Source: a virus. Taken from it: a DNA stretch of 64,000 nucleotides. Both the position numbers and the translations under genes were made by a program. A model generated the notes under the pieces. That model saw only the letters and a list, made by a program, of their open reading frames with translations, made no database searches and was not told the origin of the DNA. The stretch covers positions 1 to 64,000 of the IMG/VR virus record IMGVR_UViG_3300017971_000214; one strand, 5' to 3'. This document shows, one piece after another, positions 2,946 to 64,000 of the stretch; position 1 is the first letter of the stretch; every line of letters starts with the position of its first letter.

Positions 2946-3755
2946 ATTTGGATCTTCACCCCATTCGGGTTTCTGAGCGTCGTCGCTCACCGAGACATCA
3001 AGAAGTCCGTGCTCGTTCGAGCGCGGGCGAAGAAGGACTTGGAGCAGTTCCGGGAGAAGTACTGCAAGCGGCTCGGGCCGATCACCTTCCTGGATTGGTC
3101 GGACTATCCCTACCGAGCTACGGTGGGGCGGTGGGCCTTCGCACACGCGATGTTCAAGATCTCCCTGGACCTCACCTACACGAACTTCAAGTCCTCCGTG
3201 AAGGACAACAAGCGCCACAACGTCTACATGAAGGTGTGGACCGTCATGCGCGAGGCCGAACGCAACGGCAACATGGGCGACGAGCAAGCCGCCAAGCGCG
3301 GCCGTGCCAAGCAGTACCACCGGGGCTACACCCCGAGCACTGCCGCCGGCCAGCGCTTCTTCGAGTGGCATGGCGACAGTCAGTGGTGGCTCGATGACGA
3401 GGACGAGGACCGAGGCAAGAAGAAGAAGGGGAAGGCCAAGAAGGGCAACGGCAAGGCCAAGAAGCTAAAGGCTCGCGACGCCGACATCCCCGACCTCCCC
3501 ATCGACCCGCCCTCCCACGAGGAGCTGTGCGAGCGCGAGGAGCAGATGGCCCGCGACGCTGGCGTCTTCGACGACGACATCATCAACGACCCCTTCGGCT
3601 GGGACGACGGGCTCGGAGGCCGGAGCGAGTCCTACGATGACGAGGACCCAGACGGAGACGCCGGGATGGACCGCGGCGAGCTAGCCGACGAGCCTGGCGG
3701 GGTGCTGGAGTTCGACTCGATCAACGACGTGATCAACCACTTCAAAGCGAAGTGA
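2946..3755 (+). CDS. conserved WIFTPFGFLSVV-type protein, probable AUU start
   Basis: 269 aa if started at ATT 2946. The N-terminus WIFTPFGFLSVVAHRDIKKS followed by VLVRARAKKDLEQF closely resembles a widespread bacterial/phage hypothetical family that begins with exactly this block. The first ATG/GTG/TTG in frame is GTG 3009, which would remove it. An in-frame TAA at 2928 limits the start to ATT 2946 (AGGCGGG about 8 nt upstream) or rarer codons. The middle contains FLDWSDYPYRATVGRWAFAH; residues from ~155 are a lysine-rich patch (GKKKKGKAKKGNGKAKK) and the tail is Asp/Glu-rich, likely disordered. Function unknown. Confidence 0.7.
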   Translation: MWIFTPFGFLSVVAHRDIKKSVLVRARAKKDLEQFREKYCKRLGPITFLDWSDYPYRATVGRWAFAHAMFKISLDLTYTNFKSSVKDNKRHNVYMKVWTVMREAERNGNMGDEQAAKRGRAKQYHRGYTPSTAAGQRFFEWHGDSQWWLDDEDEDRGKKKKGKAKKGNGKAKKLKARDADIPDLPIDPPSHEELCEREEQMARDAGVFDDDIINDPFGWDDGLGGRSESYDDEDPDGDAGMDRGELADEPGGVLEFDSINDVINHFKAK

Positions 3756-3776: not shown

Positions 3777-3804
3777 TTGACTATCGCAAACCATGTGATA
3801 TATT
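3777..3804 (+). promoter_or_regulatory. sigma-70-type promoter, TTGACTATC class
   Basis: TTGACT 3777-3782, 16-bp spacer ending CCATGTGA, TATATT 3799-3804. Transcription should start about 3811, the A of the ATG of the nicotinamidase-like gene, so the mRNA would be leaderless. Confidence 0.7.
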
Positions 3805-3810
3805 GGAGTC

Positions 3811-4434
3811 ATGATGGACGCTAGGGATGTTGTTTTCGTGGACGTGGACACCCAGCGGGACTTCTGTCTGGCGGACGGCGCGCTGGCGGTGAAGGACGCT
3901 CCTGTGGAGGCGTTCCGGCGCCTGACCGCGCTGGCCGTCAAGAAGAAGATCCCAATTGTGGGTTCTGTCGACTCACACCCCTTCGATGACCCCGAGTTCG
4001 AGACCTTCCCGCCCCACTGCGTGAAGGGCACCGAGGGGCAGCTGAAGGTGGAGGGCACGCTGCCCGAGCGCAGCCGCTTCGTGGCGATCCACGAGGGCGC
4101 TACGCCGGCTCTCGCCGACCTCCGGTGCGGTGCGGCCCAAGCCGCCTACCTGGAGAAGCAGACCTTCAGCATCTTTTCTCACCCCGAAGCTACGGACCTG
4201 CTCCTCGCGCTCAGCCGGGACATCGCCGTGGTATACGGTGTCGCCACCGACTACTGCATCAAGGCCGCCGTTCTCGGGCTCCGTGAGCGCGCCTACGAGG
4301 TCTACGTCGTCACCGACGCCATCGCCGGAGTCGCCCCCGATACCGACGCCGAGGCACGGGATGAGATGGTCCGAGCTGGCGCCGTGTTCATCACCGAGAA
4401 AGAGCTGAGTCAGGCGCTGAACAAAGCCGCCTGA
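3811..4434 (+). CDS. pncA-like: nicotinamidase-like cysteine hydrolase (isochorismatase family)
   Basis: 207 aa, usual length for the family. Nicotinamidases hydrolyse nicotinamide to nicotinate and ammonia, the first step of deamidating NAD salvage. Visible family features are the N-terminal Asp in VFVDVDTQRDF, the DSHPFDDPEF and FPPHCVKGTEG metal/substrate segments, the catalytic Lys in EKQTFS, and the nucleophile Cys in YGVATDYCIK. The second His of the usual DxH-x5-H metal site is not evident, so another isochorismatase-fold activity is possible. A nicotinate phosphoribosyltransferase lies at 7492, which supports the NAD role. It has its own promoter at 3777 and an ATG at the expected transcription start; ATG 3814 is an alternative. 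Confidence 0.85.
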   Translation: MMDARDVVFVDVDTQRDFCLADGALAVKDAPVEAFRRLTALAVKKKIPIVGSVDSHPFDDPEFETFPPHCVKGTEGQLKVEGTLPERSRFVAIHEGATPALADLRCGAAQAAYLEKQTFSIFSHPEATDLLLALSRDIAVVYGVATDYCIKAAVLGLRERAYEVYVVTDAIAGVAPDTDAEARDEMVRAGAVFITEKELSQALNKAA

Positions 4435-4460
4435 ACGCCAGCTCGACGCCAGCTGGCGGT

Positions 4461-4484
4461 CGATGCGTCCATGTGGACGTATCG
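4461..4484. repeat. hairpin with core CGTCCA-TG-TGGACG
   Basis: Perfect 14-bp palindrome CGTCCATGTGGACG at 4466-4479, flanked by complementary CGAT and ATCG arms. The same 16-bp core GCGTCCATGTGGACGT recurs at 23774-23789 with different but also complementary outer arms (GGGACAT/ATGTCCC). Both copies sit just after a stop codon and before the next gene, so operator and terminator-like roles are both possible. Confidence 0.6.
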
Positions 4485-4546
4485 GCGGAGGGCTCGCAAA
4501 CTCCCCCTATGCTATCCAGACGCCACCTGCTAATATCGTGGCTCTT

Positions 4547-5173
4547 ATGGAGGAGTCGTTCACGGTAGAGAAGCACGAGCTGAAGGCCCTGGCGGCCTTC
4601 GTGAGCAAGAGCTGGGACCGCTCGCGCCTGACGAGCCTCTACTTCTACGAGGATGGGGCGCTGGCGGCATCGGACGGGCACACGCTGGTGGTCCGGGAGC
4701 ACCGGAAGACCCCCCAGACGAAACGGCCAGAGCGCCAGAAGGTCTTCGGGGTTCCGAAGGACTCGCTGGCGAGGCTCATCGGCGCGCTCGGCCCGAAGCA
4801 GGCGGTGAGAATCGGGCCGCTGGCGGACGAGGGCTGGGGGGAGTTTGAGATCTACGACCCCGCGCCAGGCTGGGACGGCCCTGGCGTGCCAGTGATGAAG
4901 GGCCACGTGATACTCAACACGGAGTCGGAGCCCCCGAGCTTCTTCAAGGTCGTCCCCGAGTTGGAGTCTGGCGTACCCGCAGCGGGGAAGGTCGGCTTCA
5001 ACCTGGACTACCTGCGGAAAGTGGATTTGATCCGCATCGCCTGTGGCCATCGAGCTGGCAGAGGCGTCGAGATGTACCCGCCTCGGGAGGAGCTGGCGCC
5101 TGCGGTGTTCCGGGTGGAAGCCTATGGATCTGACTTCCACTGGCTGGCGGTCATCATGCCCCTCAGAATCTGA
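4547..5173 (+). CDS. beta-clamp-like DNA polymerase processivity factor homologue (short)
   Basis: 208 aa, against about 370 for bacterial DnaN. Family signs are LYFYEDGALAASDGHTLVVR near residues 28-47, resembling the beta-clamp ATDGHRLAV segment, and a C-terminus ending HWLAVIMPLRI, like the MPMRL end of beta clamps. A protein of this length would hold about two of three clamp domains, so it could form a ring with a different subunit number or be a clamp-related inhibitor. ATG 4547 is preceded by TAATAT at 4531-4536, giving a nearly leaderless message; the GGAGG after the ATG is not a usable ribosome site. Assignment rests on short motifs and is tentative. Confidence 0.5.
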   Translation: MEESFTVEKHELKALAAFVSKSWDRSRLTSLYFYEDGALAASDGHTLVVREHRKTPQTKRPERQKVFGVPKDSLARLIGALGPKQAVRIGPLADEGWGEFEIYDPAPGWDGPGVPVMKGHVILNTESEPPSFFKVVPELESGVPAAGKVGFNLDYLRKVDLIRIACGHRAGRGVEMYPPREELAPAVFRVEAYGSDFHWLAVIMPLRI

Positions 5174-5208
5174 TGGGGGAGTTTGGGGACTCGTGTACAC
5201 TGCGGCCC

Positions 5209-5529
5209 GTGAATCGCCAGGACCCGCCAGCGTTCGTCGTCTCGATGCGCCGCCACATCCACATGGATGGGGACCGGCGCCCTGGCGCGCTAGCTCGGGA
5301 ACCGTTGGGCTACGGGAGCTGGATGCTGCTGGTTCTGACAGTCGGAATCACTCTGGCGCTGACGATGGAGACGTGTGATGGACGTGGAGATCAAAGGGGA
5401 CAAGAAGGAAGTACTCCGACGCCTCGTGGCCCCCTTCTTCGAGCAAGGGACCAAGCCCGTCTACGTAGCCCAGTGCTGTGGCCGGCTGTTTGCCGGGGCC
5501 GAGACCCCGAAGGGGTGCCGGGTGTGTGA
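5209..5529 (+). CDS. possible small membrane protein, doubtful
   Basis: An open frame of 106 codons from GTG 5209 with one convincing membrane helix, GSWMLLVLTVGITLAL, near residues 48-63. It overlaps the better-supported gene at 5378 by about 150 bp, and beyond ~5378 its sequence reads as a by-product. If real, the true product may be only the part up to that point or may be nonfunctional. If not, 5174-5377 is a 200-bp intergenic stretch without other features. Confidence 0.3.
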   Translation: MNRQDPPAFVVSMRRHIHMDGDRRPGALAREPLGYGSWMLLVLTVGITLALTMETCDGRGDQRGQEGSTPTPRGPLLRARDQARLRSPVLWPAVCRGRDPEGVPGV

Positions 5530-5626
5530 GTGCGTGCCCGCCTACGTGGGCTTCGACTCGCTGGACGAGGTGGACCCGGCCCATATCCCGGAGCAGCCGG
5601 AAGTCCGCGAGTCTTACCGCTCTTGA
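5378..5626 (+). CDS. cysteine-containing small protein, 82 aa
   Basis: Starts MDVEIKGDKKEVLRRLVAPF and contains QCCGRLF and CRVCECV, four to five cysteines that could bind zinc. The C-terminus is acidic and ends near the -35 of the promoter at 5623. Function unknown. ATG 5378 preferred over the adjacent ATG 5375. Confidence 0.6.
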   Translation: MDVEIKGDKKEVLRRLVAPFFEQGTKPVYVAQCCGRLFAGAETPKGCRVCECVPAYVGFDSLDEVDPAHIPEQPEVRESYRS

Positions 5627-5651
5627 CAATACCTTACCCATATGTTATGGG
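5623..5651 (+). promoter_or_regulatory. sigma-70-type promoter, TTGACAATA class
   Basis: TTGACA 5623-5628, 17-bp spacer ending CATATGT, TATGGG 5646-5651. The expected transcription start falls on the ATG at 5658, implying a leaderless transcript. The -10 region also forms an inverted repeat, ATACC...GGTAT. Confidence 0.7.
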
Positions 5652-5657
5652 TATTGT

Positions 5658-6161
5658 ATGAACGACGGACACGCATCGGGCGGAGAGTACAGAACGAGAC
5701 CATGGAATGAAGCCATTAAGGCGGAAACACGCATAGGCGACAATGTGATCCTAGTCGAAATGCAACCTGGCAACGGGACTCGGTACGGCGTGACCTTCGT
5801 GTACGTGCCGAAGGACATCGCCGGGCCGGACGCGCCTCGGTCGTACATCAACGCGCCCTGTTGGATCGTATCCCTGGCAGACATGAACTGTGCGATGGAG
5901 GTGGCCGACACGGGCAACCTGCTGCACTGGGGCTACGTGGCGGAGAAGATGAGCAGCCGACGCCGGGATTCGATGGGGCCAGCTGATGCTGTGCCTCTTG
6001 CGGAGCTGATCGGTCGGGTCACCGGGAGGCCGGTGGTCAGCTCGGCGGAGCAGGAGCAGCGCGACGCGGCAGCGCGCGCCGAGGCTGAGCGCGAGCGCAA
6101 GGAACGGGAGGCCGAGATGCTGCCTCCGATCGACCAGCTGCGGGGCCAGGAAGGCCCCTAG
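5658..6161 (+). CDS. hypothetical protein, 167 aa
   Basis: Globular N-terminal part (DNVILVEMQPGNGTRYGVTF, CWIVSLADMNCAMEV) with a short beta-rich pattern, then a long charged helix, EQRDAAARAEAERERKEREA, likely a coiled coil. No family recognised. The ATG coincides with the predicted transcription start of the promoter at 5623. It is followed by a regulatory gap and probably forms a single-gene unit. Confidence 0.7.
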   Translation: MNDGHASGGEYRTRPWNEAIKAETRIGDNVILVEMQPGNGTRYGVTFVYVPKDIAGPDAPRSYINAPCWIVSLADMNCAMEVADTGNLLHWGYVAEKMSSRRRDSMGPADAVPLAELIGRVTGRPVVSSAEQEQRDAAARAEAERERKEREAEMLPPIDQLRGQEGP

Positions 6162-53682: not shown

Positions 53683-54030
53683 TCAGCCCTTGTCCGTGCA
53701 GGCGTGGCGGTCCTCGCACGTTTCGATCTTCGCTATGCACGCAGGGTGCAAGTCCACGCCGTTCTTCTCGGCGTTCTTGAAGACATCCACGCAGCTCACG
53801 CCTCCCGGCGTAGGCTCCCACAGAGGGCGCCCATCACGGGACATGCACTGCAACTCCTCGTAGCGCTTGCACGCCGCCTCCGCCGGATCCACGTCCGGAG
53901 GGAGCACAGGGTCTGGCTCTACGCCGGCATCCGGAGCTGTTGGGATGTGGGGATCCGGGCAAGCCGGGCACCCTACAGCCGTGACGGCGAGGAACAGTAC
54001 AGGGGTCAGTAGTAAAAGCAGCTTCTTCAC
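53683..54030 (-). CDS. cysteine-rich lipoprotein, 115 aa
   Basis: MKKLLLLLTPVLFLAVTAVG then C: a signal peptide with lipobox (VTAVGC). The mature part has a Pro/Asp-rich linker and a small domain with six cysteines (AACKRYEELQCMSRDGRPLW, SCVDVFKN, ACIAKIETCEDRHACTDKG), similar to short lipoproteins of myxobacterial type. It may be an outer-membrane spanin partner or lectin-like. The start overlaps the stop of the peptidase gene. Confidence 0.7.
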   Translation of the reverse strand: MKKLLLLLTPVLFLAVTAVGCPACPDPHIPTAPDAGVEPDPVLPPDVDPAEAACKRYEELQCMSRDGRPLWEPTPGGVSCVDVFKNAEKNGVDLHPACIAKIETCEDRHACTDKG

Positions 54031-56069
54031 TTCACGAACTCCTTAGGGATCTTGACTGCCCACCAGTCAGTGACTTGATGCCAAGCCACCCACTCCCAGG
54101 ACATCCGAAAGAACCCTCCCGAGTGGAACCCAGAGGGATCTGACGCACCCCAATCCTTGCCCCAGGAATTGAGAACCCAGAGGCCGTCTTGGTCGTAGGC
54201 CACGGCGCACATCATGTGCCGCCCGCTGAACCCCTTGGGAGGCTTCAGCGGCTCGGGGTTCTTGATGCCCTTGTAGCGCTTGAAGTCGTCATCGACGATG
54301 GTGCCGAAGATGACAGGGTGGCCCTGGGAGATTGCCGACCGCACTTCTTCAGCTCGGCCTGAAAGGCCCCAGATGTTGTAGTAGCCCTCGATCCACTGCT
54401 GGTCGATGGCCGCGGCAGTGGCGTCGAAGTCCGGAGGTCGGTTGATGTTGGCCGGATCGAAAGCCCACATCTTCTCCTCGCAGAAGCCCATCCCTTTGGT
54501 GGCCTGCCAAGCGAGTCTGGGGAAGCATCCGAGATCTAGCTTCTCGGTCCCTCCCCGGTTGCGCGTGTGCCAGTAGCCGAACATCACGCTGAGGGGCTTA
54601 CGGTCAGCTATTCCGTGGACGCCCTGTGCGATGAAGTGCTGCTGTTGGATCGACTGCCACACGCAGTTATGTACGGCCACTCCGTCCGCGATGTAGGTGT
54701 GGTCCCCTTCCACTTCTAGGTTGTAAACCGGGAAGTTGGCCGGGGTTTCAGGGATGTTCACTTCACGGATACGACACAAGAATCCCAGATCGTGTTCCTT
54801 GTACCAGGAGTAGGATGCGATAGTAACGTCGTGCTCCTCCAGAACCTCTTGAAACTCGGGGAACACTCGGAGGATGTTTTTCCCATAGAGACTCAGTTCA
54901 CGCCCAGGGGCGTTCTGATGATCTTGTTCGCGTCGGAGTTGGGTGCTCAGCTTGACTCCGCTAATGGAAGCCAGCCTAAATAGCCCCCGATGGAGGGCTT
55001 TGGAGCTGGTGACTCCTTGAACAGCGGCACTCTTTCGTATCGAGCCGTCTTTCTTCTTTCGGAATCTTACCGGCTCTGAACTGCCGTCTCCTTCAAACCA
55101 ACCTCGAAGAACGGCCAATCGAGTCGAGAGCGGAGCGCGGAAACACACCGTAGGCATGTACTTGTGCAGCGCTCCCTCCCCACAAAGATTGTGGAATACC
55201 TGGGCTAAGGTGGAATTGTGGACCAGCACGCGGGAGGTTGACTCCCTGGATGGGGGCTCGTCCAAAACCCCTTCTACCCCGAATACATCGCCCAGAGCCT
55301 CGATCACGAAGTTGTGCAGGGTGCTTTCTTCGCGGGCAAAAGTGAAAGCAAGCCCCTGGAGGGTTCCCGAAGGCTTCAGGAAAGATCCCTCAGCCAAGAA
55401 CAGTCCGATGAGACGTCCGAGAGTAGAGTCCAACACGACTTCGGACGGAAGTTCGCTCCCTTTCCTACCCTGATACGCTCGAATCTTGTCATTTTCCTCC
55501 CAGAAGTCGCCTTCCAGATAGTCACGTGGACATAGGACTGCATCGGGCTTGTCACCTGACAGATCCAGGTTGGCCGGGAGAAGAACGTAATCCCCCCCTT
55601 CCAACTCGGAAGCCCTCTTCCACGTTAGTGGTCCCGCCTCGAAACTACCGTGCTTGGCCCGAGGGGATACATTCGGAAATACAGCGAAGGGGTGTTCCTC
55701 TGTAGCCGTCGCCGGGTAGATCCAACCTTGAACATTGATCTCGTATAGCGTTCCGTTGTAGGAGCGCTCCGAACATTGAGCCACGGTTCCTACTCGGCCT
55801 GTATGAGTCCGAACCCTGTTGCCAGGGACCAACTCTTCGATGGGCCTTTCGGTGAAGTCTTCCATCACGACCAACGTTCCGGCCGGGAAGCACGAGTTGG
55901 TGTTGCGCTGGTCGTTGATGAAGTCGATGAACTGGATCATGTCCATATGCTCAGACGGGGCAGCCGGAAGGCTCACCCCGAACAGAGCAGTTTCATCCCC
56001 GACCAGTTTGAAGTCGCGGTCATCGACCGGCGACGGGATGTATCCCATCCCCCTCTCGACCATCGTCAC
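54027..56069 (-). CDS. papain-like cysteine peptidase carrying an intein
   Basis: 680 codons, of which residues 60-468 are intein. The mature host protein would have 271 aa: MGYIPSPVDDRDFKLVGD, then NDQRNTNS joined to CVWQSIQ. Catalytic elements are Gln (NDQRNTNS), Cys (first residue after the intein), His (SGRHMMCAVAYD) and Asn (LWVLNSWGKDWG), the papain (C1) order. There is no signal peptide. The intein directly precedes the catalytic Cys, which is also its +1 splicing residue, so no active peptidase can exist before splicing. Lies in a minus-strand set with two lipoproteins and a membrane protein. Confidence 0.85.
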   Translation of the reverse strand: MTMVERGMGYIPSPVDDRDFKLVGDETALFGVSLPAAPSEHMDMIQFIDFINDQRNTNSCFPAGTLVVMEDFTERPIEELVPGNRVRTHTGRVGTVAQCSERSYNGTLYEINVQGWIYPATATEEHPFAVFPNVSPRAKHGSFEAGPLTWKRASELEGGDYVLLPANLDLSGDKPDAVLCPRDYLEGDFWEENDKIRAYQGRKGSELPSEVVLDSTLGRLIGLFLAEGSFLKPSGTLQGLAFTFAREESTLHNFVIEALGDVFGVEGVLDEPPSRESTSRVLVHNSTLAQVFHNLCGEGALHKYMPTVCFRAPLSTRLAVLRGWFEGDGSSEPVRFRKKKDGSIRKSAAVQGVTSSKALHRGLFRLASISGVKLSTQLRREQDHQNAPGRELSLYGKNILRVFPEFQEVLEEHDVTIASYSWYKEHDLGFLCRIREVNIPETPANFPVYNLEVEGDHTYIADGVAVHNCVWQSIQQQHFIAQGVHGIADRKPLSVMFGYWHTRNRGGTEKLDLGCFPRLAWQATKGMGFCEEKMWAFDPANINRPPDFDATAAAIDQQWIEGYYNIWGLSGRAEEVRSAISQGHPVIFGTIVDDDFKRYKGIKNPEPLKPPKGFSGRHMMCAVAYDQDGLWVLNSWGKDWGASDPSGFHSGGFFRMSWEWVAWHQVTDWWAVKIPKEFVK
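54666..55892 (-). mobile_element. LAGLIDADG intein in the peptidase gene, 409 aa
   Basis: Starts CFPAGTLVVMEDFTERPIEE (block A), block B around ATEEHPFAVFP, two LAGLIDADG motifs (GLIGLFLAEGSFL and LRGWFEGDGSS), and ends FPVYNLEVEGDHTYIADGVA then VHN with Cys +1. All splicing residues (C1, block-B His, final HN, +1 Cys) are present, so splicing and homing look competent. Confidence 0.88.
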
Positions 56070-56449
56070 TTCTCCGGGGCCGGGGTGGGAGCAGGGGTGG
56101 CTTCAGGAGCGGCCGTTGCTGGCGCTGCGGGGGGCTCAGGAGCCGGTTTCGCCTCGGGGGCGGCCTCAGGGGCCTTCTCGCACTCGGGGCATTCTGGACA
56201 CGCCCCAGCGGCCCCAGCGGCCTGCGCGGCAGCGGCCTGCTGAGCTGCGAGAATGGAGTCGATGAAGGGCCGAAGCTGCTCCTCGGTCTCACAGACATCC
56301 TTGAACGACACCCCGGTCTGCTCCGCATAGACGGCGCAGGCGTGGCGAGCAGCTTCGAGCGCAGTGCGCGCGAAGGGCTTGATTTGGGGGCAGCCCGTCA
56401 GCACCGTGAGGGCCGCTGCGATGAACACGAATCCGATGAGCTTCTTCAC
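56066..56449 (-). CDS. lipoprotein, 127 aa
   Basis: MKKLIGFVFIAAALTVLTGC: signal peptide with lipobox LTGC. Mature part has AARHACAVYAEQTGVSFKDV and a C-terminal Pro/Ala/Glu-rich segment with CPECPEC. It fits a spanin-type outer-membrane lipoprotein. Overlaps the next downstream gene start by 4 nt. Confidence 0.7.
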   Translation of the reverse strand: MKKLIGFVFIAAALTVLTGCPQIKPFARTALEAARHACAVYAEQTGVSFKDVCETEEQLRPFIDSILAAQQAAAAQAAGAAGACPECPECEKAPEAAPEAKPAPEPPAAPATAAPEATPAPTPAPEK

Positions 56450-60544: not shown

Positions 60545-62632
60545 ATGACAGAGCTGAGCATCCAGCGCATGGGCTCGGGTGAGTTCGAGCCCAAAGCCGG
60601 CCTGATCTACAAAGACGTATTCGACCTGATGAGCCTGTACGAAGGGCTCGCGTTCCGGGCGCCGACCATCGTGGTTGGCCCGAAAGGCATCGGCAAGACC
60701 CTGAGCATCCAGGCGTTCGCGGCGCAGCAGGACTGTCCCATCGTGACGTTCGACTGCTCGGAGGATGTTCGTCGCCAGCACTTGATCGGCATCTTCGTTC
60801 TGCGTGGGCAGGAGACTCCGTTCGTCCTGGGGCCGCTGACGACGGCGTTCGAGGTCGCCAACGAGGTGGGGCAGTGCATCCTGTGTTTGGAGGAGATCAA
60901 CTGTCTCTACCCCACCACTACCGTCTTGGTCCCCTCTGGCGAAGAAGTTCCGATCGAGCGGCTGCGGTTGGGAGATCCTGTTGTTGGATTCGATCCTGCG
61001 GGCGGTCAGTGTTTAGCGCATGTGGTAGAAACCCGGTATCAACGCGCTGACTCCTCATATACAATAGAAGCCGGTGAGGAAATCATCAAAGCCAGCGAAA
61101 ACCACCTCTTTTGGACAAGGAGGGGGTGGGTCCCCGCGAAGTTCCTCCAAGAAGGGGACGAAGTCCTTCGTGTGTGCGAAGTGTGGTTGCCGCAAAAAGG
61201 ACCTGAGGTCTCTTCGGGCGCACGAACGGATGGCTCACGGGAAGAATCCGATGAAGAATCCGGAATGCGTCGTGAAGGTTCACACGGCGGCTCGGAACGA
61301 GAAGATTTCAAAAGCCGCAACAGCGCGGTGGAAGGACCCGGAGTACCGGGAGACGATGAGCGAGTTTCTACGGGAGTTGCGTCCCATGGACAACCCCAAG
61401 GTGAGATCAAAGATGTCCGAAACCCAGAGGCTTCGGATGCTTTCGGAATGGAGGGATCCGAAAAAGAGAGAACGTCGCTTGGAGAGTTGTCGGACGCCGG
61501 AGTTCCGAGAGACTGCGGCGAAAGGGGGAAAGAAGACCGCTGCGTTCTGGAGGTCCCCAGAAGGAAGAAAGATAGCTTCGATGCGCTCCAAGAAGCTCTG
61601 GGCGGACGAGAGACACCGGAAGCTCATGTCCGAAAAGCGAAAACAGCATCTACTGGATCATCCAGACAAGAAGATACAGTTCGTACATGCGGGATGGAAC
61701 GCTCAACGCCCAACGAAGTTGGAACGTCGGGCCATAGAGATTCTAGTCGACCTTCCAGTCTTCTACACAGGGGACGGAACGAGATGGATCACTACACCCA
61801 AAGGGCGACATTTGAATCCGGACTTTTCGGTGGAAGGCAAGAAAGTGATTCTTGTGGATGGGGACTACTGGCACCCACCGAATCAGAAGAGGTCAGAGAC
61901 TTTGGCCTACAAGAGCGCGGGATTCTCAGTTCTTCGCTTGTCGGAAGACCAAGTGAAGAACCATCCAGCACTTGTGCTAAAGCGGGTCCAGAAATTCCTC
62001 TCTGGGTAACCGTTCGAAGAGTCACCCGAAATCTTGAGGCTACTCCTCTGTGCGAAATCGGCCTTACTGGTCCTCACACTTACTTTGCTTCGGGGCTCGG
62101 AACGCACAACTCACTGACACCCCAGATGCAGAAGGTGCTCAACGCCCCAACCGACTGGCGGCAACGCATCGAGGTGCCGGAAGCTCGGAAGGTGTTCCGG
62201 TTGGAGAAGGGCAAGAAGATTTGGGTAACGGGGACGATGAACACTGCGGTATACGGCGGCGTGTACCAGCTCAACGAAGACCTGAAGAGTCGCATGAGGC
62301 TCGTTGCGCTTACCTACCCGAAGTCCTCCAAGGAGAAGGAGATCATCGCCGCGGTCCTCTCCGACACGTCTCTGGATCAGTCGGTAGTCGACCGGGTGAT
62401 TCTCCTTGCGCACGAGACTCGACAGCAGTCGTTGGAGTACGCGCTCAGTACACGCGACGTCGTGCAGTTGCTGGAGGACATCGCGGCTATGGATTTGACC
62501 AGGGCGCTGCGCATCGTACTCGGCAAGTTCGACGACACCGACCGGGACACGGTGGCAGAGAGAATCCAAAGCATCTTCGGCGTGAGCTTCGATCAGACCT
62601 CGCGGCGTCGCGGGGCTGCAGCGAGGGCGTGA
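60545..62632 (+). CDS. MoxR-type AAA+ ATPase carrying an intein
   Basis: 695 codons; residues 120-522 are intein, leaving a 292-aa ATPase. Walker A VGPKGIGKT near residue 44, Walker B CILCLEEIN ending at residue 119, then, after the intein, SLTPQMQKVLNAPTDWRQRI, sensor-1 region TGTMNTAVYGGVYQLNEDLK with R finger SRMRLVALTYP. MoxR ATPases act with VWA-domain proteins to insert metals or remodel complexes; one follows directly at 62634. Splicing should join LEEIN to SLTPQ right behind Walker B, so the unspliced protein should be inactive. GGAGGAGAG ribosome site. Confidence 0.88.
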   Translation: MTELSIQRMGSGEFEPKAGLIYKDVFDLMSLYEGLAFRAPTIVVGPKGIGKTLSIQAFAAQQDCPIVTFDCSEDVRRQHLIGIFVLRGQETPFVLGPLTTAFEVANEVGQCILCLEEINCLYPTTTVLVPSGEEVPIERLRLGDPVVGFDPAGGQCLAHVVETRYQRADSSYTIEAGEEIIKASENHLFWTRRGWVPAKFLQEGDEVLRVCEVWLPQKGPEVSSGARTDGSREESDEESGMRREGSHGGSEREDFKSRNSAVEGPGVPGDDERVSTGVASHGQPQGEIKDVRNPEASDAFGMEGSEKERTSLGELSDAGVPRDCGERGKEDRCVLEVPRRKKDSFDALQEALGGRETPEAHVRKAKTASTGSSRQEDTVRTCGMERSTPNEVGTSGHRDSSRPSSLLHRGRNEMDHYTQRATFESGLFGGRQESDSCGWGLLAPTESEEVRDFGLQERGILSSSLVGRPSEEPSSTCAKAGPEIPLWVTVRRVTRNLEATPLCEIGLTGPHTYFASGLGTHNSLTPQMQKVLNAPTDWRQRIEVPEARKVFRLEKGKKIWVTGTMNTAVYGGVYQLNEDLKSRMRLVALTYPKSSKEKEIIAAVLSDTSLDQSVVDRVILLAHETRQQSLEYALSTRDVVQLLEDIAAMDLTRALRIVLGKFDDTDRDTVAERIQSIFGVSFDQTSRRRGAAARA
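60902..62110 (+). mobile_element. intein with an out-of-frame endonuclease gene in place of its nuclease domain
   Basis: 403 codons. N-terminal Hint part: CLYPTTTVLVPSGEEVPIER, block B ASENHLFWTRRGWVPAKFLQ. C-terminal part: ATPLCEIGLTGPHTYFASGL then GTHN, with Ser +1. Between them, about 280 codons of host frame are Ser/Glu/Gly/Arg-rich low complexity with no LAGLIDADG or HNH motif. In the +1 frame of that stretch lies a complete endonuclease gene. Splicing residues are all present (Cys1, His, final HN, Ser+1). Confidence 0.88.
61074..62009 (+). CDS. C2H2-finger, NUMOD3 and Vsr-like homing endonuclease, nested in +1 frame of the intein
   Basis: Up to 311 aa (GTG 61074; the true start may be later). 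Order: C2H2-like finger FVCAKCGCRKKDLRSLRAHE then RMAHGKN; NUMOD3-like repeats (ISKAATARWKDPEYRETMSE, KMSETQRLRMLSEWRDPKKR, GKKTAAFWRSPEGRKIASMR); then a Vsr-like nuclease, RPTKLERRAIEILVDLPVFY, HLNPDFSVEGKKVILVDGDY WHPPNQKR and YKSAGFSVLRLSEDQV. The P-D-F, V-D-G-D-Y-W-H and L-R-L segments fit the Vsr/EDxHD homing class. The host frame remains open throughout. Confidence 0.85.
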   Translation: MRKSSKPAKTTSFGQGGGGSPRSSSKKGTKSFVCAKCGCRKKDLRSLRAHERMAHGKNPMKNPECVVKVHTAARNEKISKAATARWKDPEYRETMSEFLRELRPMDNPKVRSKMSETQRLRMLSEWRDPKKRERRLESCRTPEFRETAAKGGKKTAAFWRSPEGRKIASMRSKKLWADERHRKLMSEKRKQHLLDHPDKKIQFVHAGWNAQRPTKLERRAIEILVDLPVFYTGDGTRWITTPKGRHLNPDFSVEGKKVILVDGDYWHPPNQKRSETLAYKSAGFSVLRLSEDQVKNHPALVLKRVQKFLSG

Positions 62633-62633
62633 G

Positions 62634-64000
62634 GTGCGGACTCCTTTTTCTCCCCCCGCGGACCCGCTAGCTGCGGCGATGTCGGAAGAGGCTGAGTCCG
62701 CCGACACGTTGGCGGACTTACGTCGGTACTCGGTGCTCAAGTCGGTGGCCTACAAGACCGTCGACATGTTCTCCGGCATCACCAAGCGGCGCTTGTGGCT
62801 GAAGGACGGCTCCTTCGTGGGGACAGACGGGAACGAGATCAGAGTTCCCTTCTCCGATCCGGACTTCTACCAGCTGGTGGAGCGCCAGCTCGCCCACGTC
62901 CTGTTTCGCTCGGACGCCAAGGCCAAGAAGGTGTTCGTCCGGGACTACTCGATGAAGGTGGCGGAGGTAGCCAAGAAGATGGGGGTCGAGCTGAACGCCG
63001 GCCACCTTCAGGGAGCCATCGGCCACATCATCACGGTTCTGGAGAAGCGCCGCGTCACCTCCCTGTGGGGGATCTTGTATCCCGGCAGCCACCAGCTACT
63101 GAAGGAGATCGACCAGGAGTCCGTCGCAGAGCTGATGAATGAAGCGCACGGGAGCCTACTCGCCTATCTGACCTGTTTGGAAGGCGACGGAGCGTCGGTC
63201 GGTGCGGGGGAGATGGATCGATTCCGGCCCTACATCGAGGAAGCCTTCCGGAAGGTGCACAAGCGGGGGTTCTCGGCGACGCTTTCGATCTCCAAGTGGC
63301 TCGTGATGCAGTTCGTCAACGAGATCATCCGAGAGCTGAAGGACATCCCACCCCCTCCCCCGCCCATGCCTACGCCCCAAGGGCAGCCCGGCTCTGCTGG
63401 AAGCTCCGGCGAGAACGATTCAGAGAGGGAGGAAGGTGACGACTGCGACTGCGACGCCCCGAAGGCTGGGGGCAGCTCGGAGGGATCCGGAGAAGAAGGC
63501 GATGAAGGCTCCCAGGAGCCCTCTGAAGGCGACGATGGGGAGGGGGAGGGCGACGCCCCCGACGAAGGCGACGAAGGGCAGGAAGGGGCCTCAGAGGGGG
63601 AAGAAGACGGGGATGGGGATGCCCCCTGGAACCCGCCGCCTCCGCCGGCTACCGGGGCCGAGCGTACCCAGGCGCTGAAAGATCTGATCGACAAGCTGGG
63701 GAAGGCCCCCGAGCAGGTGAAGGACACAATGCTGGAGTCCAAGTTCACCAAGTCTCGGCACTCGCCTAAGGCGCAGGCGCTTGCTTCGCAGGCGTTGAAG
63801 GCGGACGTGAACAACCCGGACAAGTTCGAGGACAGCCTGGATGACTCCGAGCAGGAGATGGAGGACATCCTGGATGCGGCTCTCCGAGCCATGCGCCAGA
63901 AGATGCACCACGACGAGTGGTTGCAGAAAGATGCGATGGCGAAGATCAGCTTCGTCGACAAGGAGGATCAGAAGCACGCCCGGCAGCCCATGAGCTTCGA
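62634..64000 (+). CDS. VWA/CobT-like partner of the MoxR ATPase, cut by the window end
   Basis: 455 residues visible, no stop inside the window. GTG 62634 overlaps just after the ATPase stop; ATG 62679 (SEEAESADTLADLRRYSVLK) is an alternative. The N-terminal 230 residues are helical; a Pro/Asp/Glu/Gly-rich acidic region follows (about 235-340: GEEGDEGSQEPSEGDDGEGE), then helical sequence. Acidic linkers of this kind precede the VWA domain in CobT- and MoxR-partner proteins; the VWA domain itself would lie beyond 64000. The assignment rests on position and layout. Confidence 0.55.
   Translation, partial: MRTPFSPPADPLAAAMSEEAESADTLADLRRYSVLKSVAYKTVDMFSGITKRRLWLKDGSFVGTDGNEIRVPFSDPDFYQLVERQLAHVLFRSDAKAKKVFVRDYSMKVAEVAKKMGVELNAGHLQGAIGHIITVLEKRRVTSLWGILYPGSHQLLKEIDQESVAELMNEAHGSLLAYLTCLEGDGASVGAGEMDRFRPYIEEAFRKVHKRGFSATLSISKWLVMQFVNEIIRELKDIPPPPPPMPTPQGQPGSAGSSGENDSEREEGDDCDCDAPKAGGSSEGSGEEGDEGSQEPSEGDDGEGEGDAPDEGDEGQEGASEGEEDGDGDAPWNPPPPPATGAERTQALKDLIDKLGKAPEQVKDTMLESKFTKSRHSPKAQALASQALKADVNNPDKFEDSLDDSEQEMEDILDAALRAMRQKMHHDEWLQKDAMAKISFVDKEDQKHARQPMSF

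Follow-up and report, generated by a model that had tools for sequence, protein, structure and literature searches.

Can an intein carry its homing endonuclease as a separate gene, overprinted in another reading frame, and not as a domain of the intein polypeptide itself? The question is raised by an insert in an ATPase gene of a phage that infects bacteria and is represented by a virus record of 126,260 bases (a 126-kb phage contig). The stretch that was analysed, called the window here, comprises 64,000 nucleotides of this record and has a GC content of 62%. The host gene is open from 60545 to 62632 (695 codons) and encodes a MoxR/CobS-like AAA ATPase (AAA_5, 1e-10; phrog_249, 9e-16). Exactly 1209 bases (60902-62110) are inserted in the Walker B region of the ATPase, between EEIN and SLTP, and divide the gene into the following parts.

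60545..60901, plus strand: N-extein of the MoxR/CobS-like AAA ATPase, 119 aa, with Walker A GPKGIGKT and Walker B ..CLEEIN
60902..62110, plus strand: intein in the host frame, 403 aa, from Cys1 to His-Asn and followed by Ser+1; missing at the same site in 18 distinct relatives
62111..62632, plus strand: C-extein of the ATPase

The gene 3' of the ATPase (window 62634-63998) has an acidic second half, and this synteny, which is like that of a CobS/CobT-like pair, is found in nearly all relatives of the ATPase. The phage has four other inteins, in a cysteine-peptidase-like protein, a DnaB-like helicase and, twice, a terminase.

54030-56102 of the window, minus strand, and 72820-75453 and 101769-106229 of G000: these four inteins, each of which has a LAGLIDADG or HNH domain in frame

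The borders that a sequence-only reading of the window had assigned to the intein (60902-62110) are exact, with the host frame open throughout. All the class 1 cis-splicing residues are present in this frame, which reads CLYP...ASENH...GLGTHN and then S (Cys1, the block B His, His-Asn and the +1 residue). When the ends of the insert are joined, they align over their full length, including the terminal HN, with the gp41-1 intein (phmmer, E 3e-4), and they also match a bacterial intein-like domain (phmmer, E 2e-4). The Pfam Intein_splicing model scores 0.07 on the host frame, which is below the cut-off, and the intein of the window is therefore a divergent one. Intein-like domains and mini-inteins are the top Foldseek matches of a model of the host-frame insert. 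In the AlphaFold model the Hint strands occupy residues 5-90, with a pLDDT of about 60-78; a closed Hint domain is not visible in this whole-insert model, which is poor and leaves the C-terminal half undocked. No Rfam intron matches the insert at E values up to 1, and group I or group II intron identity is ruled out on this ground. The host frame of the insert consists of three parts (L217 is a relative of the window intein, described below).

60902..61168, plus strand: N-terminal splicing half (blocks A and B; ASENH), under purifying host-frame selection in comparison with L217 (dN 0.40 / dS 2.1)
61169..62002, plus strand: stop-free host-frame linker, about 278 codons long, rich in Ser, Gly, Glu and Arg and unconstrained in sequence
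62003..62110, plus strand: C-terminal splicing half (WVTV...PHTYFASGLGTHN), with an identity of 73.5% to L217 in a comparison of 34 residues

The earlier claim that some 280 host codons remain free of stops without any domain-like sequence fits the linker, whose codons number about 278, are disordered in the model (pLDDT about 30) and have a pN/pS of 1.32. The +1 frame of the same DNA has the following content.

61170..62009, plus strand: hidden EDxHD (Vsr-like) homing endonuclease in the +1 frame, 279 aa, with a GTG start and a TAA stop
61173..61238, plus strand: C2H2-type finger of the nuclease (CAKC..HERMAH)
61710..62006, plus strand: catalytic core of the nuclease, with E at 61722, the Asp of PDF at 61821, the His of GDYWH at 61872 and Glu at 61944

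The stop of the +1 ORF at 62009 is the point at which the C-terminal splicing half starts. The nested ORF matches Pfam DUF559 (1e-4, above the cut-off), Vsr (2e-3, a weak match) and, over residues 24-306 or nearly its whole length, phrog_22215 (1e-11), and these matches confirm the proposal that a complete nuclease gene lies in the +1 frame inside the intein middle. The C2H2-like finger named in that proposal is supported by phmmer matches to solved zinc fingers and by the conservation of its Cys and His residues in L217. The Vsr-like core with PDF and VDGDYWH is supported by its active-site residues, since the Glu, the PDF motif, GxYWH and the distal Glu are invariant in an alignment with 10-11 relatives, and by its fold: the C-terminal core of the nuclease model is confident (pLDDT mostly 80-96), and the best PDB match of the model is the catalytic domain of I-Bth0305I (Foldseek, E 4e-4, probability 1.00). 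The NUMOD3-like repeats that had also been proposed find no such support; Pfam detects no NUMOD3 in the window copy, and the middle of the nuclease is a run of helices. With a conserved Glu, the PDF Asp, the GxYWH His and a PD-(D/E)XK-type Vsr fold, the nuclease meets the criteria for membership of the EDxHD family.

Scans of viral and genome collections for exact peptides of the window nuclease and ATPase gave no match, phage and plasmid records held no homologue of the nuclease or the intein, and an alignment with the cyanophage CobS retrieved only cyanophage ATPases, which are about 25% identical. Relatives were retrieved with a degenerate ATPase pattern, MNTAxYGG, which gave 16 loci and, in a second scan, 22 ATPase loci. 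Only one independent relative of the window intein was found, an identical intein on two contigs, L217 and L226, which lies at the same codon boundary, has a nuclease that is again in the +1 frame and 58% identical to that of the window, and shares the terminal GGTAAC; the L217 host ORF is a stop-free frame of 683 codons. The intein is missing from 18 distinct relatives of the ATPase, a number that includes L335-like outgroup members; the tree, from which identical copies were removed, holds 17 sequences and the two carriers. At the DNA level, the +1 position in the intein-free relatives inspected is Gly or Ala, as against Ser in the carriers, and in the distant intein-free L335 it is an Ala that follows a Ser. 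One intein-free allele (L221/L326) shares a metagenome number with L217. The two carriers form a moderately supported sister pair in the extein tree (86/85), and from this placement a single origin of the two inteins, followed by long divergence, is inferred to be likely.

The sequence-only reading would have been refuted by a frameshift error that had displaced an in-frame nuclease, or by related genomes in which the +1 frame is full of stops. Neither was encountered. A relative that is only 58% identical and is open in both frames has the same +1 offset and the same GGTAAC stop, and a sequencing frameshift is excluded for this reason.

The remaining question is whether the openness of the host frame is maintained by selection. 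Every stop in this frame requires a T at the wobble base of a nuclease codon, followed by AA, AG or GA, and such stops are easily avoided because the T in question always has a synonymous substitute. In the window nuclease, codons ending in T precede AA, AG or GA in 0 of 66 cases, compared with 48 of 161 elsewhere (P 1e-8). A stricter, purine-only control gives 0/59 against 10/53 for the window (P 3e-4) and 0/63 against 17/71 for L217 (P 8e-6). When synonymous codons are permuted, the mean number of host stops is 10.4 for the window and 8.4 for L217, and none is observed in either; for the window, no permutation among 20,000 was free of host stops in one run, and the fraction was 0.0003 of 3,000 in another.

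It could be supposed that the frame is open by chance in GC-rich DNA, or that it has been produced by a frameshift in sequencing or assembly. The GC content of the window, 62%, is in favour of such an explanation; ordinary ORFs of the window phage also use less T in these contexts (10.9%), and among control ORFs 12 of 474 stretches of 279 codons (2.5%) are open by chance in the frame concerned, so that openness in a single copy, taken alone, would be only moderately surprising. Chance becomes untenable, however, because an independently diverged relative whose synonymous sites are saturated (pS 0.80) has the same openness, which is found also in unrelated inteins, one of them antisense at 38% GC. 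An error would have to consist of two compensating errors, identical in independent assemblies. Chance or error is accordingly considered scarcely credible as an account of the locus.

Comparison of the window with L217 separates the frames. The nuclease frame is under purifying selection (pN/pS 0.38, 0.31-0.45), the host-frame middle is unconstrained (1.32, 1.10-1.64), and the unused third frame, which contains 12 and 13 stops, has a pN/pS of 1.09. Selection on the amino acids of the host-frame middle, for which 77 identities against 66.7 +/- 6.0 expected might be adduced, is rejected because the excess in the unused third frame is larger (85 against 71.0 +/- 5.8). The proposed selection on both frames is therefore borne out by the per-frame test in two lineages, as purifying selection in the +1 frame and stop avoidance in the host frame. 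Judged from these substitution patterns, one frame is maintained as nuclease coding sequence, and the other is kept open in its middle and kept in sequence at its ends.

This avoidance of stops bears also on the possibility that the middle is lost from the RNA or jumped by the ribosome, through an intron inside the intein or translational bypassing, and is not translated in the host frame. Group I introns are a common location of homing endonuclease genes, and the nearest cultured relatives of another hidden gene, the HNH gene of L352 described below, carry the annotation of HNH genes within polymerase introns. The absence of an Rfam intron match argues against skipping, as does the fact that selection in both lineages has kept the entire middle free of host stops, since stop avoidance would be pointless if the middle were untranslated; this explanation is rated very improbable.

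The sequence-only reading placed the start of the nuclease near GTG 61074, with a product of 311 aa. The ORF can be read from this codon, but it has no Shine-Dalgarno sequence, and it was rejected as the start. The likeliest start is GTG 61170, which has one, and the likeliest product is thus the 279-aa protein that begins at the zinc finger.

61151..61158, plus strand: Shine-Dalgarno-like GAAGGGGA (-7.9 kcal/mol), 11 nt 5' of GTG 61170

No internal sigma-70-like promoter was found for the hidden nuclease gene in the window. The nuclease of the relative has an internal ATG with a Shine-Dalgarno sequence at a spacing of 6 nt (-6.6 kcal/mol). The window copy lacks this ATG, and a start at the GTG would cut off a conserved aromatic residue that precedes the finger. 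The leading alternative for expression of the nuclease is programmed +1 frameshifting near 61117-61123, in which some ribosomes would slip from the N-terminal half of the intein to make an N-extein/N-intein/nuclease fusion ending at 62009 while the rest would give the spliced ATPase. A strong Shine-Dalgarno-like AAGGAGG (61117-61123) stands just 5' of GTC CCC GCG, where a slip from CCC to CCG enters the nuclease frame; no ATG lies near the finger in the window copy, and the residues directly preceding the finger are similar in the relative. Against this must be set the good internal ATG of the relative, the ATG after AGGAGG in a hidden nuclease of another intein (L362, below) and the Shine-Dalgarno sequence of GTG 61170 itself, and frameshifting is considered unlikely.

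The reading preferred with considerable confidence is that the locus holds a mobile intein with a homing endonuclease that is overprinted and not fused. The sequences establish that both ORFs exist, that each frame is selected in its own way, that the insert is present or absent at one site and that the arrangement recurs in other inteins; splicing, internal initiation, cutting and homing are inferred, without experiment. Ribosomes in frame 0 would read the whole ATPase gene and produce an ATPase precursor, in which the two Hint halves, tethered by the disordered linker of about 278 residues, would fold together, and the intein would then excise in cis with ligation of the ATPase at the N/S junction. 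An internal +1 start on the same mRNA (GTG 61170, or the ATG in the relative) would yield the separate EDxHD endonuclease, which would cut intein-free ATPase genes, and repair would copy the intein into them. The host-frame middle would be selected solely for the absence of stops. Several points speak against this reading: it rests on no experiment, the intein is divergent and its C-terminal half undocked in the model, the intein has a single independent relative, the window copy lacks the ATG and would lose the conserved aromatic residue with a GTG start, and an internal sigma-70-like promoter is missing.

Of the 150 distinct EDxHD-type ORFs retrieved, four are entirely enclosed by a longer ORF (with about 100 or more codons on either side), namely L217 and the antisense cases L058, L112 and L129. 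Hidden nucleases in inteins other than that of the ATPase are the following.

L352 (G001:C1:54500-60500), 3142-3693, minus strand: hidden HNH (HNH_3, 2e-12) in the +1 frame of a DNA-polymerase-A intein, in the phage of L217
L361, 3290-4111, and L362, 2025-2867: hidden NUMOD3 + TnsA-like nuclease in the +1 frame of terminase inteins of two related phages (L361: NUMOD3 2e-17, TnsA-like 1e-10)
L058, 4232-5074 (host ORF 3797-6073, minus strand; L123 the same), L112 and L129: antisense in-register EDxHD nucleases in Mu-F/SPP1-gp7-like head proteins

L352, L361 and L362 have zero host stops each, compared with permutation means of 8.0, 9.7 and 7.4, and between L361 and L362 purifying selection is seen in the hidden frame only (pN/pS 0.46 vs 1.24). 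The hosts of L058, L112 and L129 are inteins by Hint and intein C-terminal models. For these antisense cases codon counts were used, because stops depend only on the choice of Leu and Ser codons and synonymous permutation is uninformative. TTA, CTA and TCA are absent from the 36, 31 and 24 Leu and Ser codons of the three hidden genes, L129 avoiding them even at 38% GC; their share in free-standing relatives of similar GC is about 22-36%. The contig of L217, G001, is unusually rich in inteins, with 13 matches to the intein splicing model in 113 kb and several genes that have two inteins each.

All the hidden endonucleases found lie in the sense +1 or the antisense in-register frame. Enumeration of the genetic code shows that these are the two of the five alternative frames in which no dipeptide forces a stop, and the remaining three force a mean of 2-4 host stops in free-standing relatives. 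Overprinting is possible without harm to the nuclease because the two permissive frames never force stops in the host frame.

The nearest precedent outside inteins is the ShiLan domain, an HNH endonuclease encoded out of frame within a methylase frame that stays open and has no intein; it lies in the remaining sense (third) frame, and the insertion is presumed to be retained in the protein (PMC11855218). Its position shows that the frame rule is not absolute for non-intein inserts. The window insert is like ShiLan in having an endonuclease out of frame in a stop-free host frame, a disordered host-frame product and a disjunct distribution. It is not of that type, since it is in the +1 frame, encodes an EDxHD enzyme and has splicing halves. 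The claim of novelty in the sequence-only reading must be narrowed accordingly: out-of-frame endonucleases in host genes had already been published (ShiLan, PMC11855218), but no description of one inside an intein was found in the literature searched, coverage of which was partial and left out most subscription papers.

Large inteins with in-frame LAGLIDADG or HNH domains share with the window intein the Hint halves A/B and F/G, the insertion in a conserved ATPase motif and the endonuclease between blocks B and F. They differ in that the window endonuclease is outside the intein polypeptide, in the +1 frame and with its own start and stop, and the disordered, unconstrained host-frame middle also excludes the insert from their class. 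The nuclease itself resembles I-Bth0305I in the fold of the catalytic core and in the active-site motifs of the EDxHD family; I-Bth0305I is not known to be intein-encoded. Dassa et al. reportedly described, in 2009, fractured genes in which a free-standing Vsr-like endonuclease lies between the halves of a split intein. The nuclease superfamily, its place between the splicing halves and the gp41-1-like mini-intein are the same in the window, whose host gene, unlike a fractured gene, is unsplit, one continuous ORF with the nuclease overprinted (695 codons in the window, 683 in L217). Fractured genes were also seen in the course of the analysis, in dnaE (L117 and L124), where a Vsr-like nuclease separates the two halves of a split intein, and in T4-like terminases (L363, L364 and L365; for example, Yersinia phage phiR1-RT), where the nuclease in this position is TnsA-like.

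It appears probable on balance, with appreciable room for doubt, that overprinted inteins are a general and repeatedly evolved architecture, in which EDxHD, HNH and NUMOD3 + TnsA-like genes invade mini-inteins without fusion and persist only in the two permissive frames, as an alternative fate to gene fracture that leaves the nuclease independent of the spliced polypeptide. Inteins are usually described as fusions that combine splicing and homing in one polypeptide; in the present case a distinct, overlapping gene encodes the endonuclease, so that its production, regulation or loss involves no fusion junction, and annotation overlooks it. By this route inteins may acquire an endonuclease with no need for a domain fusion to evolve; fractured genes offer a contrast, because there the host gene is broken by members of these nuclease families. 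The two genes form an unusually clean natural overlapping pair, in which one frame needs its sequence, the other needs just to be free of stops, and the genetic code predicts the permissive frames. Inteins with long low-complexity middles merit a rescan in the other five frames, and the frame rule predicts where hidden endonucleases would lie.
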